31,603 nucleotides of DNA, taken from positions 1-31,603 of the IMG/VR virus record IMGVR_UViG_3300046512_000152; one strand, 5' to 3'. The position numbers and the translations under genes were made by a program. The notes beneath the pieces are model-generated. The model made no database searches, was not told where the DNA came from, and saw nothing but the letters and a program-made list of their open reading frames with translations. This document shows positions 18,124-31,602 of the stretch, one piece after another. Source of the DNA: a virus. Each line of letters opens with the position of its first letter. The stretch's first letter is position 1.

Positions 18124-18444
18124 TCAATCCCCTGTGTAATTTGTTCCGCCTGCTCCCAGACGGTTTGGTTGCTCGTATTGGCTCTGTGGCCCTATCGGTG
18201 TTGGAGCAGTCTTTAACGCCAAGACTTCGCGCTGTACCTGCTGCAATTTGAAACTCAATTGGGTGACCAACTCATCGACAGAAAGCACCAACTTGGTCCC
18301 CTTAACAACCCAACCTGAGCCGTTGCAATCCGTGCAAACCAGCTCATAAAACACCCCCGCAACTATCGCCTTACCCTTGCAGATCGAGCAGGGTTCAAGC
18401 TCGATCCGCTCCCGCTTAAAGCCAGGCCCCTGTCGTTTCTGCAC
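18124..18444 (-). CDS. Hypothetical zinc-ribbon protein (nin-region position)
   Basis: This 106-residue protein has two CxxC pairs, CSICKG (19-22) and CTDCNGSGW (37-40), resembling a DnaJ-type zinc-binding repeat, followed by a helical region (VDELVTQLSFKLQQVQREVL) that may form a coiled coil. The start is GTG at 18444 with GAGG upstream, and it overlaps the end of the recombinase gene by 29 bases. It sits between the recombinase and Q. No function known. Confidence 0.7.
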   Translation of the reverse strand: MQKRQGPGFKRERIELEPCSICKGKAIVAGVFYELVCTDCNGSGWVVKGTKLVLSVDELVTQLSFKLQQVQREVLALKTAPTPIGPQSQYEQPNRLGAGGTNYTGD

Positions 18445-19744
18445 GTTTTAAAACCTCGCCCTTAACAAATTGTGGTTCTGGCTCGCAGGCCCCGCCGTTC
18501 AAGGCGTCTACGAGGTTTTGCGAATCTTCATATCTAACGCCTGTCTGCGCGTGAATCGCCTTGAAGCCGCGCGCATCTAACCAGTCGTGCCACTTCACCA
18601 ACGCCAAGCGGCGCTGCTCTTTGGCCTGAGTGTTGATGTACGTCGAGGCGATCTTGCCGAGCGAGTGGTTGAGCAGCATCTCGCCGATGTGGCCGTCGAC
18701 GCCAAGGTCAGTCCAGGCAGTTCGGGCCACCTTGCGCAGGTCGTGACTGGTCCAGGCGCCCTGTCCTAGCCGGGTGAATACAGCGCTGGCTTGGTTGTCG
18801 CTCAGCGGCTTGCCACGGCGCGAAGGGAACAGAAAGGCCCCGTCGTAGCCCTGGGCAGCCTGGCGATCACGGTACCGGCACAGCAGCCCGACAACTTGGT
18901 CGGTCAAAGGCACCCGAAGCACGGTCTTGGTCTTGGTGTGTTCGGCAGGCAGGAACCACTCGCGCTCCGGCAGTGCAATGTCAGCCCACCGTGCTTGGCG
19001 GGTTTCGCCAATCCGGGTGCCGTGGCAAAGCATCATCAAGGCCAGCATGGCGTCACCCGGCTCGCTGTCGAAGCGCTCAGCCAGCAGTGCCACCAGTTCG
19101 GGTAACTGCACGTCGCGAAGGCGCGCAGGCTTGGGCAGAATGCGGGCCGTGGTGAAGTTACTGAACTTGAGCTCGGCCATCGGGTTGAAGGGGATCAGGT
19201 CGAGCTTGCGCGCCTGGCGGAAACCCATGGCGACGAGGCGGAACAATTGCTGAACGTAGGACAGCGACAGCTCTTCCTGCGCCGGCCACATTAGCTGCCT
19301 GTCCAGGGTTTGGGCGTTGAGTTCGCTCAGCAGCAAATCGTCCAGGCGCGGCTTGAGCTGGCAGCTGATTGCAGACTTGATAGCCGCCCGACGCTTGTCC
19401 GAGAGCGCTCGCGATTTAGCCATGCGATCGCCAAACCAGTCCAGCAGCTCGCCCACGGCCACCCAGCCCGAAACGCTCGCAGCGCCGTCAGCCGCCACAC
19501 GCAGCCGTACCGCTGGGAGCGCCGCGACCACCTGTTTGCTGCTGAGGTCGGGAAAATGCCCGATCAGGTGCCATTGGCGCTTGTGGAGCAAGTACCAGGA
19601 GCCGCGCGTTCGGTTCTTCAAGTACCGAAAGTGAAGCGCTGGATGGCTTGCATCCCGCAGGTCACGAACATGCTCAAGCTTGGCGTTGCGCGCGATCTCG
19701 GCATCCGACAATTTCACCGTCAGGGTTTTTATTTGGGTGTTCAC
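18416..19744 (-). CDS. Second tyrosine recombinase (nin-region integrase-type)
   Basis: This 442-residue tyrosine recombinase has all catalytic residues visible: R244 in HGTRIGETRQ, K271/K273 in EHTKTKT, H334-x-x-R337 in SHDLRKVART, H360 in LLNHSLG and Y369 in STYINTQ. Residues 1-90 look like an arm-binding domain (FRYLKNRTRGSWYLLHKRQW). It is co-transcribed with replication genes and lies between the helicase loader and Q, unlike the prophage integrase at 30487. It starts with GTG at 19744 (GGAGG seven bases upstream) and overlaps the preceding gene. The substrate is unknown. It might resolve multimers or be an invertase or domesticated integrase. Confidence 0.88.
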   Translation of the reverse strand: MNTQIKTLTVKLSDAEIARNAKLEHVRDLRDASHPALHFRYLKNRTRGSWYLLHKRQWHLIGHFPDLSSKQVVAALPAVRLRVAADGAASVSGWVAVGELLDWFGDRMAKSRALSDKRRAAIKSAISCQLKPRLDDLLLSELNAQTLDRQLMWPAQEELSLSYVQQLFRLVAMGFRQARKLDLIPFNPMAELKFSNFTTARILPKPARLRDVQLPELVALLAERFDSEPGDAMLALMMLCHGTRIGETRQARWADIALPEREWFLPAEHTKTKTVLRVPLTDQVVGLLCRYRDRQAAQGYDGAFLFPSRRGKPLSDNQASAVFTRLGQGAWTSHDLRKVARTAWTDLGVDGHIGEMLLNHSLGKIASTYINTQAKEQRRLALVKWHDWLDARGFKAIHAQTGVRYEDSQNLVDALNGGACEPEPQFVKGEVLKRAETTGAWL

Positions 19745-21621: not shown

Positions 21622-21930
21622 CTATTCCTCCTGCAACTGATCAACGTTCTGGATCAGCTCCATGTACCGCTTTGCCTGATGCAAAAGGGTTTCAATGTCG
21701 CGCTTGTCGAAGCACTGCATGGCCATGGGCACTACCTTGAGCCCGAGCACCGCCAGGATCTGGCAGAACTGCTCAAACTTCTCGGGCTTCATGCGGCTAA
21801 TCGTCGCCTCGTCGCAACCGACTGCAAGCGCAACAGGCGCATTGCCGACTGATGCAAGGTGCTGCATGAGAACGGAGTAGTTCTTGCGGGCCCTTACGGT
21901 CTGCTCTTGGCTTAATGGACTCGTTGGCAT
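21622..21930 (-). CDS. CII-like phage regulatory protein
   Basis: This 102-residue protein begins MPTSPLSQEQTVRARKNYSV. It follows lambda CII closely in pattern: a leading helix, a helix-turn-helix (VALAVGCDEATISRMKPE) and then KFEQFCQILAVLGLKVVP, like CII KFSMLLAVLEWGVV. The remaining helix would form the tetramer. CII-type activators turn on the repressor and integrase promoters when establishing lysogeny. The ATG at 21930 is used rather than the overlapping TTG at 21936. It sits second in the leftward operon after the Cro-like gene, as in lambda. Confidence 0.82.
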   Translation of the reverse strand: MPTSPLSQEQTVRARKNYSVLMQHLASVGNAPVALAVGCDEATISRMKPEKFEQFCQILAVLGLKVVPMAMQCFDKRDIETLLHQAKRYMELIQNVDQLQEE

Positions 21931-21932
21931 GG

Positions 21933-22121
21933 TCAAGCCGCCGACTGAGACTGGCTTTTATTGCCGGGTTTCAGTTCTCCGTTGGTGAGCTTTTCCAATT
22001 GGTACTGCCGCAACTCGGGGACTTCATCCCGCCACTGCCGCACAGCCTCATAGGTGATATTGAGGGCGCGTGCGAGTTTGGGGATGGAGCCGTAATAATC
22101 AATCGCTGTTTGGCGTTTCAT
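21933..22121 (-). CDS. Cro-like repressor
   Basis: This 62-residue helix-turn-helix protein starts MKRQTAIDYYGSIPKLARAL and contains LNITYEAVRQWRDEVPELRQ, typical of Cro/YdaS-type proteins, with the end QLEKLTNGELK. GGAGG lies five bases before the ATG at 22121. It is divergent from the CI gene across 89 bases containing three operators. It should shut off the repressor promoter during lytic growth. A longer frame to 22157 would cut into the operators and lacks a ribosome site. Confidence 0.88.
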   Translation of the reverse strand: MKRQTAIDYYGSIPKLARALNITYEAVRQWRDEVPELRQYQLEKLTNGELKPGNKSQSQSAA

Positions 22122-22210
22122 AGGCACCTCCAATGCTGTTACGCCAAATTCAAGCATGCTTGCACTTAATAAGCAAGCATGCTTGCCAAGCTAACTTGTA
22201 GATTGCTTGC
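22122..22210. promoter_or_regulatory. Right operator region (OR) between cro and cI
   Basis: Three dyads share one pattern: CAAGCATGCTTG at 22151-22162 and again at 22174-22185 (23 bases apart) and the looser CAAGCTAACTTG at 22187-22198. On the minus strand TTGCTT and TTGAAT stand 17 bases apart across the first two operators, a plausible PR. On the plus strand TAGATT lies at 22199-22204, seven bases before the repressor ATG, so PRM would make a leaderless message. The same operators recur at 24332-24386. Confidence 0.8.
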
Positions 22211-23059
22211 ATGAAAATTACTGATCGGATTGCGAAACTTGTCCTGGCGCGAAAGCCTGAGATCGGGCCGCGAGGATTCAAAAGGGATATAGCGACCACC
22301 TGCGGGGTCAGCTACGAAGCTGTTCGTCAGTGGTTTGCAGGCGACACCGGCAACATCAAGAATGAAAACCTAGTCGCGATCGCTGAAGGCTATGACACGA
22401 CGGTCGATTGGCTACTATCTGGCAAGGGTGAGCCGCCGAGCCGGAAGGTCGTCAATGAGCTAAAAACCGGTCAGAAGTCATCTGCAGATCTGGTCAAGCA
22501 GATGCTCGCGAAGCATGGCCGGGGACTGTCGGAAGAAGCACGAGCGCGAATCGTCGAGGTGGTAGAAGAGGTGGCACTGGAGTCGAAGTCGACCAATGTA
22601 GTGAAAGTCGACTTCTCTCGCCCCGGCCAAGTCGGTGACGAGGTGTGGATTGCGCACTACGACGTGCGTGCAGCGATGGGTTGCGGGCAGATCCCACATG
22701 AATACCCGGAAATGCTCCAGGACATAAGGGTCAGCCCCAAGCATCTACGCGATCTAGGCGTCACGTTCAAAGAGCACTTCCACCTCAAGATGATCACCGG
22801 ATGGGGTCAGTCGATGGCACCGACGATCAAGGATCGCGACCCACTGCTCGTCGACATTACGGTCCGGGAGTTTACAGGCGACGGTATCTACCTCTTCTCC
22901 CACGACGACATGCTGTACGTGAAGCGCTTACAGAAGAAAGGCAAGGACCGCTTCAAGATGATCTCGGACAACAAGCACCACGACCCCGAGGACATCCGAG
23001 CGGATGACACACATATCCTAGCCAGGGTGCTTTACGTCTGGAACGGACAACCGGTATGA
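22211..23059 (+). CDS. CI-type repressor, S24 peptidase family
   Basis: This 282-residue repressor has an N-terminal helix-turn-helix (DIATTCGVSYEAVRQWFAGD, about 27-46) and a C-terminal S24 domain. S201 in GWGQSMAPTI and K238 in LYVKRLQK form the catalytic pair. AAMGCG at 154-159 is the likely self-cleavage segment, with a Cys-Gly bond as in P22 c2. RecA filaments would trigger cleavage and induction. No ribosome site precedes the ATG, so the message is probably leaderless, as from lambda PRM. It likely binds all six CAAGCATGCTTG-type operators. The linker (80-130) is longer than in lambda CI. Confidence 0.94.
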   Translation: MKITDRIAKLVLARKPEIGPRGFKRDIATTCGVSYEAVRQWFAGDTGNIKNENLVAIAEGYDTTVDWLLSGKGEPPSRKVVNELKTGQKSSADLVKQMLAKHGRGLSEEARARIVEVVEEVALESKSTNVVKVDFSRPGQVGDEVWIAHYDVRAAMGCGQIPHEYPEMLQDIRVSPKHLRDLGVTFKEHFHLKMITGWGQSMAPTIKDRDPLLVDITVREFTGDGIYLFSHDDMLYVKRLQKKGKDRFKMISDNKHHDPEDIRADDTHILARVLYVWNGQPV

Positions 23060-23063
23060 CGCT

Positions 23064-23300
23064 ATGTCCCTGACCAAGCCAAACCAAGACCTTAAGCGCG
23101 ACCTACAAGGCATCGCCTCCGACCTCAAGTGGTCAGCCGTAGAACTGATGAGGGTTGCGGAGCGACTTAGCCTTGCAGGGAATGAGTCGGACGCTCAGGC
23201 CGTGCTGAGGATGTGCATCGTATTTAATGCAGACGAGGATCGGCTGACGGAGTATGTGGACGAGGTGAAGGCAGGAAGGATTTTGCGGGGGGGAGCTTGA
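23064..23300 (+). CDS. Small hypothetical protein in the rex position
   Basis: This 78-residue helical protein (MSLTKPNQDLKRDLQGIASD onward) contains LKWSAVELMRVAERLSLAGN. No family recognised. It starts four bases after the repressor stop with only a weak ribosome site, so translation is probably coupled to cI and driven by the repressor promoter. It is expected to be made in lysogens. The gene is GC-typical for the window. Confidence 0.62.
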   Translation: MSLTKPNQDLKRDLQGIASDLKWSAVELMRVAERLSLAGNESDAQAVLRMCIVFNADEDRLTEYVDEVKAGRILRGGA

Positions 23301-23352
23301 ATAGAAGGCGAAACGGATCTGGGCACTCGATCATCACAAGGGAGCGATTCTG

Positions 23353-23871
23353 GTGGCAACCATCAAGTTCAGTTACAGGGATGCAAAGGGCGATTTGAGT
23401 CAGCGCGAGCTGATCCAGTGGTCAGAGAACTCGCTCTACATTCAGGGGAGGTCTGCTGCTGACTCATTCCCCAAAACATTCAGGAAAGACCGCATAGTTG
23501 AAGTTCACTTTGGTGCGGAGCTACTGCTGAATGACGCCGCACCACCAGCTCCAATGCTATTGCCAAAACCACGCCCATCGGCCATTGCTGGGTCGTCCGC
23601 TGCTTCCCACCATCCACAGCCAAAGACACCGCCCGGTGGGATAAACCAAATTCTTTTCACTGGCTTTGCGGCGGCGCACCGAGCCGAGCTTGAGCGAAAG
23701 GCAATGGACTCAGGGCTAAAAGTTATGAGTACTCCTGGCAAGTCGCTGACTTTTCTCTGCTATGGCGATAACGCCGGGCCTACCAAGGTTGCGAAAGCAC
23801 AGGAAGCCGGAGCCTTCATCATTGATGCTGAGCAGTTTCTGAGTTTGATAGCAACCGGCGAGATGCCTTAG
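23353..23871 (+). CDS. BRCT-domain protein in the rex position
   Basis: The protein has 172 residues. The N-terminal 55 (FSYRDAKGDLSQRELIQWSE, GRSAADSFPKTFRKDRIVEV) resemble a WYL-type beta domain. Residues 60-95 are a proline-rich linker. Residues 98-168 form a BRCT domain of the DNA-ligase type (ILFTGF, GLKVMSTPGKSLTFLCYGDN, AGPTKVAKAQEAGAFIIDAE). BRCT domains bind DNA ends or phosphoproteins. The start is GTG at 23353 with GGGAG upstream. It follows the repressor on the same strand, where lambda has rexAB, and ends in a bidirectional terminator. The biological role is unknown. Confidence 0.78.
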   Translation: MATIKFSYRDAKGDLSQRELIQWSENSLYIQGRSAADSFPKTFRKDRIVEVHFGAELLLNDAAPPAPMLLPKPRPSAIAGSSAASHHPQPKTPPGGINQILFTGFAAAHRAELERKAMDSGLKVMSTPGKSLTFLCYGDNAGPTKVAKAQEAGAFIIDAEQFLSLIATGEMP

Positions 23872-23916
23872 AGGGCATGGTGCGATAGGGGCCGTAGTCG
23901 GCGCCCCAGGTATCAC

Positions 23917-23955
23917 AAAAAGCCCGCGATCGAGCGCGCGATCGAGCGGGCTTTT
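23917..23955. terminator. Bidirectional terminator between convergent genes
   Basis: AAAAAGCCCGC and GCGGGCTTTTT form an eleven-pair stem around an inner loop with a repeated GCGATCGAGCG. T runs exist on both strands. It separates the repressor operon from the convergent DUF1654 gene. Confidence 0.9.
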
Positions 23956-23964
23956 TGTTGTCCA

Positions 23965-24282
23965 TCAGAAAGGCGCCAGCTCTTCTTCTGGCTCGAATTC
24001 GGCTTCTCCCCTTCCCGCCTTCTCCACCTCCTGCTGCTCCCACCTCACCGTCACGCTGCCGTCATCATTTAATGTCAACTCAAGTTCGTCCGTATCGGCG
24101 ATCACACCAAGTACCTCTTCCCATTCCCGATCCCCGTCCGTATCCAGGCGATGAATCGTTACCCAGCGCTGCGCCTGCGCCACCGGGTGATTGATCATCG
24201 ACGACACCCTCAGGCCCAATCTTTCCATGCTCGTCATTTCTGCCCGCATCGACTGCCCCGGGCTTCCCTTCTGCTTAGGCAT
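23965..24282 (-). CDS. DUF1654 family protein under LexA control
   Basis: This 105-residue protein has the DUF1654 pattern: SMERLGLRVSSMINHPVAQA, a WVTIHRLDTDGDREWEEVLG stretch and LELTLNDDGSVTVRW. The family is found mainly in Pseudomonadaceae and their phages. Its function is unknown. The ATG at 24282 (GGGGTGG upstream) is chosen. The ORF start at 24312 would overlap the LexA box. A perfect LexA box (24299-24318) lies just upstream, so the gene should be induced by DNA damage. It is convergent with the BRCT gene. Confidence 0.82.
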   Translation of the reverse strand: MPKQKGSPGQSMRAEMTSMERLGLRVSSMINHPVAQAQRWVTIHRLDTDGDREWEEVLGVIADTDELELTLNDDGSVTVRWEQQEVEKAGRGEAEFEPEEELAPF

Positions 24283-24298
24283 AACCACCCCCCTAGAA

Positions 24299-24318
24299 TA
24301 CTGTATACACATACAGTA
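24299..24318 (-). promoter_or_regulatory. LexA (SOS) box
   Basis: TACTGTATACACATACAGTA contains CTGT-N8-ACAG with the outer TA/TA as well, matching the gammaproteobacterial LexA consensus. It lies 17 bases upstream of the DUF1654 ATG and 14 bases from the left operators, so SOS and CI control meet here. Confidence 0.9.
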
Positions 24319-24331
24319 ATCAAAATATACA

Positions 24332-24386
24332 CAAGCGTGCTTGCATTAATATCACAAGCATGCTTTTATTAATGCAAGCCGACTTG
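24332..24386 (+). promoter_or_regulatory. Left operator/PL region
   Basis: Three copies of the repressor operator: CAAGCGTGCTTG (24332-24343), CAAGCATGCTTT (24355-24366) and CAAGCCGACTTG (24375-24386). The first two are 23 bases apart, just like the right operator pair. TTGCAT at 24341 and TTTTAT 17 bases further on form a candidate PL with its -35 and -10 in these operators. It drives the plus-strand operon towards integrase. Confidence 0.8.
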
Positions 24387-24414
24387 TGCTTCTGAACAAG
24401 CACAAGAAGCCCAC

Positions 24415-24496
24415 CGCTCTTTAACAGTCAGCGCAACAAATAACAGACCGCATTGCCTCTACCGGCGACCGGCGAGCAGACAGGCCCGAAAGCCTG
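24415..24496 (+). promoter_or_regulatory. boxA and boxB-like nut site
   Basis: CGCTCTTTAACA at 24415-24426 matches the rRNA/lambda boxA consensus for antitermination factor NusB/S10. A hairpin CAGGC-CCGAAA-GCCTG lies at 24481-24496, and smaller inverted repeats lie between. boxB is therefore possible but not clear. No N-like arginine-rich protein gene is seen in the operon. Confidence 0.55.
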
Positions 24497-24665
24497 CCAA
24501 CGACAGGAACAACCTGGACGGTTGCTCGATGGTGAAACGCCTTTACCGAGTGAATGACCCGGCAAGCAATGCGCCCCGCCCCTCCGGCGGCAATAGGACG
24601 GACAGCATCACTGAGCAGCCTTCTCGGGAGGGCTGCTTGGGATGACAACCGACAGGTAATCACCC

Positions 24666-30277: not shown

Positions 30278-30490
30278 ATGAAACGAGAGCTGATCAAGAT
30301 TAGTGAGTTCCAGCGCCGGCGCTGGGGCGAAAACGGAACACCGCAATGCCCCCAGGCGATCCGCAACCACATCCGGAATGGCGTGGTGCCCGGCGAGCAG
30401 ATCGGGAAACTCTGGTACGTTGACTGGACCGCATTCAACCGCTCGGCCGGCAACGACCTGGTGGCGATGGTATTGAAAGGAGCTGCATGA
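30278..30490 (+). CDS. Putative excisionase (Xis-like)
   Basis: This 70-residue protein (MKRELIKISEFQRRRWGENG onward) contains PQAIRNHIRNGVVPGEQIGK followed by LWYVDWTAFNRS. This winged-helix pattern fits MerR/Xis-type excisionases that bend DNA at attL/attR. GGAG lies six bases before the ATG. Its stop overlaps the integrase start (ATGA), as with lambda xis-int. The assignment rests on pattern and context. Confidence 0.78.
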   Translation: MKRELIKISEFQRRRWGENGTPQCPQAIRNHIRNGVVPGEQIGKLWYVDWTAFNRSAGNDLVAMVLKGAA

Positions 30491-31602
30491 TGGCACCACG
30501 GCCGCGCAATACTGCGAACAAAAGCCTTCCGCAGAACCTGTACTTCGATGCGCGGCGCTCGACCTATCGCTATCGCCGGCCAACCGACGGCAAGTGGTTT
30601 CAGTTCGGGACCGACCGCATCAAAGCAATTGACGCGGCGAAACAGTTGAACCTGGAGTTCATGCGCGGCGCCGACTTGGTGGGCGCTGTGCTGAATACAG
30701 CTTCCGATTCATTCTCCGGCTTTCTCGACACCTACGAGCGCGACGTACTACCTCCGCGTGAGCTGGCCAAGGGCACGCTCAGCCTGTACGCGGTGCACTT
30801 CCGGCGCTTCCGCAAGCAGTTCGAGGGCAAAGCCGTCGACCAAATATCGATACGCATGGTCGCGGAGATGCTGGACGCACTAACCCCGCGCACGGCTAAC
30901 CAGTGCCGCGCGCTGCTGACTGACATCTTCAACCACGCGGCGGCCAAGGGCCTATGCCCAGACAATCCGGCAGCGAGCACGATAAACCGCATCGAGAAGA
31001 AACTGCGCAAGCGTCACACGATCGAGGGGCTTAAGGCCATCCGAGAAAAGTCGCCTGCCTGGCTACAGAACGCAATCGACTTGGCCCTAATCACCGCCCA
31101 GCGCCGGACGGACATCCTGGACATGCGGTTCGATGGTGTTCGAGAAGGCCATCTGTACGTGGTGCAGAAGAAAACCGCCAAGGCCAGTGATGCTGCATGG
31201 ATTCGATTTCGCGTGACGCCCGAGTTGCAGGCTGTGATCAGCAAGTGCCGTGACGACGTCGTCTCGCCGTACCTGGTGCATAGGAAGCCGGATCGCCTGA
31301 AACAGAAGCAGGCGCAGACCAAGGACCACTGGACGAAGGTTGAAGAGAGGTATTTGACTCGAGCGTTCAAGGAAGCCCGGGAGGCGGCGGAATGCTACAA
31401 GGGATGGAAGGAAGAGGAGATGCCGGGCTTTCATGAAGTGCGGGCACTGTCGCTGCACCTGTACAAGAAAGCCGGAAAGGATGGGCAAAAAATTGCGGGG
31501 CACGCGAGCGAGGGCATGACCAAAAACTACCAGCGGGACCACGAGGAAATCGTCTGGTCCGAGGCGATTCCAGACCTGAATATCAGCGAAATCACCGGGT
31601 AG
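30487..31602 (+). CDS. int: Prophage integrase, tyrosine recombinase
   Basis: This 371-residue lambda Int-type recombinase has an N-terminal arm-binding domain (LYFDARRSTYRYRRPTDGKW), a core-binding domain (about 75-170) and the catalytic domain. The catalytic set is visible: R206 in TAQRRTDIL, K229 in QKKTAK, H316-x-x-R319 in FHEVRAL, H339 in AGHASEG and Y348 in MTKNYQRD. It directs insertion and excision at attP/attB. The gene is complete, with its stop at 31600-31602, one base from the window end. The attachment site should therefore lie just outside. It overlaps the excisionase gene. Confidence 0.96.
   Translation: MMAPRPRNTANKSLPQNLYFDARRSTYRYRRPTDGKWFQFGTDRIKAIDAAKQLNLEFMRGADLVGAVLNTASDSFSGFLDTYERDVLPPRELAKGTLSLYAVHFRRFRKQFEGKAVDQISIRMVAEMLDALTPRTANQCRALLTDIFNHAAAKGLCPDNPAASTINRIEKKLRKRHTIEGLKAIREKSPAWLQNAIDLALITAQRRTDILDMRFDGVREGHLYVVQKKTAKASDAAWIRFRVTPELQAVISKCRDDVVSPYLVHRKPDRLKQKQAQTKDHWTKVEERYLTRAFKEAREAAECYKGWKEEEMPGFHEVRALSLHLYKKAGKDGQKIAGHASEGMTKNYQRDHEEIVWSEAIPDLNISEITG

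Follow-up and report, generated by a model that had tools for sequence, protein, structure and literature searches.

The 31,603-nt viral record analysed here over its full length (the window) contains what we consider, with a probability of roughly 0.93, to be a lambdoid OR/OL operator set in the immunity region of a temperate Pseudomonas phage, controlling PR, PRM and PL. The kind of genetic switch is familiar, and it is well supported that this sequence is a further instance of it. Leftward from OR, cro is divergent from cI and is followed by a cII-like gene and then by O-like and DnaC-like replication genes. CI combines an N-terminal HTH with a C-terminal S24 domain. Furthermore, one operator is repeated between cro and cI and occurs again at the promoter beyond cI, and this arrangement is found in 79 distinct phages. 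The original prediction, in which CI and Cro act on OR between their two genes and on OL at a promoter beyond cI, is supported by the conservation of the sites and by their co-variation with the repressor domain, both of which, like the site positions, were observed directly.

The features of the region are collected in Table 1. In the S24 domain of CI, the Ser (GQSM) and Lys (LYVKR) motifs and a candidate Cys-Gly cleavage site (AMGCGQ) can be read from the sequence. Lambda-type CII sites, TTGC-N6-TTGC, gave four scattered matches, none of them at the position expected for PRE. The 31.6-kb record also contains two integrase-type tyrosine recombinase genes, 18416-19744 (-) and 30487-31602 (+), the first of which sits amid the replication-side genes.

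Table 1. Features of the immunity region, in window coordinates.
Feature	Position	Strand	Sequence or elements	Support and remarks
cII-like activator gene	21622..21936	-		PF05269; phrog_725 E 7e-30
cro, P22_Cro family	21933..22121	-	recognition helix ITYEAVRQW	PF14549 E 6e-22; PDB 1rzs P22 Cro E 9e-8
PR (predicted)	-10 22148..22153; -35 22171-22176	-	-10 TTGAAT, -35 TTGCTT	17-bp spacer; extended TG (TGC-TTGAAT); start near 22141
Operator OR1, cro-proximal, over PR -10	22151..22162		CAAGCATGCTTG	exact match; at least 95% conserved in 49 distinct OR sequences
Operator OR2, over PR -35	22174..22185		CAAGCATGCTTG	exact match; at least 95% conserved
Operator OR3, between PRM -10 and its -35 region	22187..22198		CAAGCTAACTTG	motif match
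PRM -10 (predicted)	22199..22204	+	TAGATT	+1 at A of cI ATG; no recognisable -35
cI repressor gene	22211..23059	+	HTH helix VSYEAVRQW	HTH PF01381; S24 PF00717
78-aa ORF downstream of cI	23064..23300	+		phrog_6388, unknown function
172-aa BRCT-domain protein, rexAB-like cargo position	23353..23871	+		PF00533 E 3e-6; phrog_2561
Bidirectional terminator hairpin, between convergent cI operon and DUF1654 gene	23918..23957			sequence and scan
DUF1654 gene	23965..24282	-		PF07867 E 2e-26; likely ATG at 24282
LexA box, before DUF1654 gene	24301..24316		CTGTATACACATACAG	exact match
OL operator on PL -35	24332..24343		CAAGCGTGCTTG	motif match; conserved in relatives
PL (predicted)	24341..24369	+	-35 TTGCAT 24341-24346; extended -10 TGC-TTTTAT 24364-24369	17-bp spacer; start near 24376
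OL operator on PL -10	24355..24366		CAAGCATGCTTT	right half altered by the -10
OL operator across PL start site	24375..24386		CAAGCCGACTTG	CAAG....CTTG at least 95% conserved
boxA in PL leader	24416..24426	+	GCTCTTTAACA	exact match
Structured leader RNA after boxA, ~137 nt	24441..24577	+		model match 151 bits; covariation

The original prediction described three matching dyads between cro and cI and three more beyond cI, with the first two of each cluster 23 bp apart in plus-strand order. All six dyads are present and the spacing is correct. However, the loose wording of the dyad alone would lack significance: the palindrome CAAGCATGCTTG with up to three mismatches occurs 19 times in the window against 19.0 expected, which is the level of chance. 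Because the loose dyad is not enriched, significance was recomputed with a refined motif, CAAGYNNRCTTG. This motif has five exact matches in the window, all within the two clusters, and the sixth site (24355) is one base off. In 300 simulations under a second-order Markov model of the window, CAAGYNNRCTTG occurred 0.27 times on average, at most twice, and never twice within 60 bp. Within a Pseudomonas genome of 6.9 Mb that harbours a related prophage, its 19 matches consist of five in the two clusters of the prophage and 14 scattered singles, and a pair of CAAGCATGCTTG at 23-bp spacing occurs exactly once. The refined motif was derived from the very sites on which it was tested, and independent evidence is therefore needed; conservation in relatives provides the stronger support.

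The relatives are 160 IMG/VR loci obtained from CI and Cro searches, with some contigs in both sets. A search for the dyad in these Pseudomonas phages, which the original prediction had proposed, found both clusters in 104 loci representing 79 distinct phages, and the internal spacing is fixed among them (23+13 at OR and 23+20 at OL). Only two pairs were prerequisites of the search, the one 23 bp apart at OR and the outer one 43 bp apart at OL; it placed no demand on OR3 or on the middle OL operator, yet both are present. Of 66 distinct relatives, 65 retain the CAAG..CTTG of OR3; at OL, the middle site reads CAAGCATGCTTT in 62 of 83 and CCAGCATGCTTT in 16. The OL pair was not detected in ten loci with OR, six of which end less than 3 kb downstream; no OL pair was detected in L082, L151, L084 and L104 despite 3.6-5.9 kb of downstream sequence. 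A literature search on operators in Pseudomonas phages found little. The level of loose matching in the window would agree with the far dyads being chance matches or unrelated inverted repeats. However, clusters of the exact motif are absent from the 300 simulations, and some 80 distinct phages have the sites at the same fixed spacing. This conservation already refutes a chance origin, and we give that explanation practically no credence.

Many relatives share the CI C-terminal domain and differ in the DNA-binding domain, by which eight groups could be told apart. A relative with another such domain carries another dyad, which in most groups is shared by the two clusters. An unsupervised search that scored both sides, near cI and far, recovered group-specific dyads near cI and at the distant cluster, the latter on a promoter of the same architecture. 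When the dyads were tabulated across groups, that of group A was found near cI in 35/35 members and far in 33/35, and the corresponding counts were 8/8 and 8/8 for E, 4/4 and 4/4 for F, and 6/6 and 5/6 for H; for these groups, the table is sharply diagonal. The dyad of group B was present at the far side in 5/6 with a loose match only at OR, that of group C was present near cI in 7/7 with a single good far site, and that of group G appeared at relaxed matching only and loosely at OR. No dyad was found for group D in this unsupervised search. The dyads were picked with both sides in view, and the control is the near-empty off-diagonal of the table, where the group A motif gave a few far matches in other groups.

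The relative SC_8_H2H8_2017 (L005) provides a mosaic. Its 86-90% alignment to the window, present to either side, breaks off exactly at window positions 24317-24410, between the LexA box and boxA, and before 22607 inside cI, where the two sequences are unrelated. Therefore, OL and the segment from OR to the CI DNA-binding domain are replaced together, with shared DNA between them. Moreover, the putative recognition helices of CI and Cro change together across groups. When pairings were permuted, with groups rather than sequences as the unit and the helix segments aligned by eye, 4 of 40320 permutations, one of them the true pairing, were as good by identity, and by BLOSUM score none but the true pairing did as well (1/40320). 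The two helices of the window itself are nearly identical. These observations bear on the suggestion that the far cluster is used by Cro alone or by another regulator and is not bound by CI. The degenerate middle OL dyad, CAAGCATGCTTT, would fit such a use, but the OL dyads change with the CI DNA-binding domain, both across groups and in the mosaic, and the near identity of the CI and Cro helices argues in the same direction. We consider this suggestion very improbable and retain the reading in which CI and Cro would share both clusters.

A strict sigma-70 consensus scan of the sequence listed none of PR, PL and PRM, and these promoters were therefore assigned by conservation; PR, for example, is predicted from consensus and from conservation. 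The flanking ATT and the TTG of PR are at least 95% conserved in relatives, as are TTGCA and TTTTAT of PL in 69 distinct OL regions, and TTGAC-type -35s stand at the PL position in other DNA-binding-domain groups. The TA.ATT beside OR3, which is the predicted -10 of PRM, is also conserved in relatives. The conserved hexamers overlap dyads at both clusters. In PR and PL alike, the three terminal bases of each dyad of the 23-bp pairs fall within a hexamer, and all 83 distinct sequences have GCTTT, part of the -10, at the end of the middle OL dyad. The expectation that PR and PL overlap the operators at the same relative places is supported for the 23-bp pairs but does not extend to the third operator of each cluster, because OR3 lies upstream of PR, over PRM, and the third OL site lies over the PL start.

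The predicted PRM -10 is placed to start transcription at the cI ATG, and the cI message is therefore likely to be leaderless. With respect to this predicted start, OR2 is centred near -31. In lambda, OR2 is centred near -42 of PRM. Because of this difference in geometry, the lambda mode of PRM activation by CI is not predicted here. In addition, the OR2-OR3 spacing of 13 bp is tight for two neighbouring dimers.

The 23-bp spacing shared by the two clusters had been put forward as a sign of looping. However, 23 bp is the sum of a 6-bp hexamer and a 17-bp spacer, that is, the distance from -35 to -10, and the same spacing at OR and OL results from promoter architecture and needs no looping. It is possible, although we would not favour it, that the two clusters act independently and that CI represses PR and PL locally, in which case dyads and spacings match because one repressor blocks two similar promoters. 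Besides accounting for the spacing, this explanation agrees with the OR-OL distance, which is 2.2 kb in the window and ranges from 920 to 4058 bp in the 79 distinct phages without helical phasing (Rayleigh p 0.59; over such lengths, no effect of phasing is expected anyway), and with the lambdoid 933W repressor, which lacks cooperativity between adjacent sites (PMC3317979). By contrast, the repressors of lambda, HK022 and phiKO2 each loop OL to OR in a looping assay, with OL-OR distances of about 700 bp in HK022 and about 630 bp in phiKO2 (PMC8053113), and nearly all relatives retain the full set of three operators in each cluster. Since all three lambdoid repressors in that one assay loop, we believe it somewhat probable that CI oligomers loop OL to OR in this phage as well. 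The variable OR-OL distance is compatible with looping and does not demand it.

Protein binding, promoter activity, autoregulation and looping are what we infer from these data, and according to the lambdoid reading, the switch would operate as follows. CI dimers would occupy the CAAGYNNRCTTG dyads. Through those covering the two PR hexamers, they would turn off cro, cII and replication, and OR3, lying over PRM, would determine how much cI is expressed. Through the three OL dyads, which cover the -35, the -10 and the start of PL, they would turn off the second early operon. Release would be expected to come from SOS cleavage of CI in its S24 domain, and after induction, Cro, with its near-identical recognition helix, would bind the same dyads.

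The interval between cI and OL (window 23060-23960) occupies the position of rexAB in lambda and is variable cargo in relatives. In this cargo, PADLOC matched only the 172-aa protein, by its BRCT domain alone, and gave no other defence match. By eye, a RelA/SpoT-like ORF was noticed at this position in L016 and an ATPase-like ORF in L028. The variable interval is a place to seek lysogen-expressed genes, including defence genes. A minus-strand DUF1654 gene is present in the cI-OL interval of 65 of 82 distinct relatives, with varied genes otherwise, and in 65 of 83 distinct OL regions CTG-N10-CAG precedes the first OL operator by exactly 31 bp. The longer DUF1654 ORF would start at 24312, inside the LexA box, which makes the ATG at 24282 the likelier start. 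Judging from the box, the DUF1654 gene is likely to be under SOS control within the immunity region.

The most novel neighbour of the switch is the leader RNA after PL. A boxA core follows OL in 68 of 78 relatives, against a background of about 0.02, and the copy at 24416 is the only exact boxA in the window. The leader RNA behind it has 25 pairs, with 98.1% of cells paired and 10 pairs changed on both sides, in a structure predicted from the same alignment in which the pairs were counted; its covariation score is 0.304, compared with 0.108 after shuffling and no more than 0.04 after sliding. This RNA is found in a subset of relatives, and others have different leader sequences after the same boxA. 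It is present in 23 of 149 sampled Pseudomonas genomes, boxA lies upstream in 24 of 25 copies checked, and genome matches found by the leader RNA alone have further operator-promoter cassettes just upstream. In two such loci, L251 and L252, the cassette immediately before boxA and the leader RNA has dyads that belong to none of the eight groups (of AAGGCATGCCT type and of ATACGCATGCGTAT type), and more immunity specificities therefore exist. Rfam gave no family above chance in the region, and the leader RNA has no Rfam match. The window contains one copy only, after PL; a second copy after PR was sought and not found, and weak matches at 30334 and 28623 were judged to be chance or fragments. 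A non-exhaustive search of the early products identified no N-like antiterminator. The arrangement differs from nut/N of lambda, which has boxA behind each of the two early promoters, a boxB hairpin and an N protein, in that an exact boxA and the leader RNA follow PL only and no N-like protein was found in that search. We regard boxA and the leader RNA as a candidate cis antitermination element, a function that is a guess, and the conserved PL leader as a testable candidate for RNA-based antitermination.

Taken further, these data can be combined in a broader proposal, which we offer tentatively and think rather unlikely. In this proposal, two separated cassettes, one comprising cro, OR and the CI DNA-binding domain and the other comprising OL and PL (roughly 100-160 bp, bounded by the LexA box or terminator and by boxA), would be swapped as a matched pair to give at least eight immunity specificities, and the PL leader RNA would antiterminate the early operon in cis without an N protein. 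Under the lambdoid reading itself, a large family of Pseudomonas phages shares the OR/OL switch of lambda. The family is a natural experiment: as the DNA-binding domain of the repressor changed, so did the Cro helix and both operator sets, and immunity specificity can therefore be read from about 100 bp.

Among known Pseudomonas systems, the P. aeruginosa phages D3 and YA3 have a lambda-like cI/cro order with predicted PR, PL and PRM; in the part of PMC7326022 drawn on here, repeated operators in two clusters are not described for their immunity regions. The P. putida prophage P1 is likewise lambdoid, and additional genes directly follow its cI; CI (PP_3896) is accompanied by RexABpp, and the cI promoter is positively autoregulated (PMC12894663); its operators are undescribed in that paper, in which the word is absent. 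The Cro of the window belongs to the P22-type Cro family (PF14549; PDB 1rzs), although the operator and recognition helix are expected to differ from those of P22. Like HK022 and phiKO2, the phage has a lambdoid repressor whose gene is flanked by OL and OR, but the OL-OR distance over which looping was demonstrated in those phages is 630-700 bp, compared with 2.2 kb here and 0.9-4.1 kb in relatives. In comparison with lambda, the operator sequence is unrelated, OR2 and OR3 are just 13 bp apart, a boxA and a long structured leader follow PL with no N-like antiterminator identified, and a LexA-boxed DUF1654 gene lies beside OL. Nevertheless, the plan is that of lambda: cro and cI are divergent, three operators lie between them and three more beyond cI at PL, the operators overlap the predicted early promoters, the cI message from PRM is likely leaderless, and OR and OL are 2.2 kb apart, close to the approximately 2.3 kb of lambda (PMC5880393, PMC8053113).
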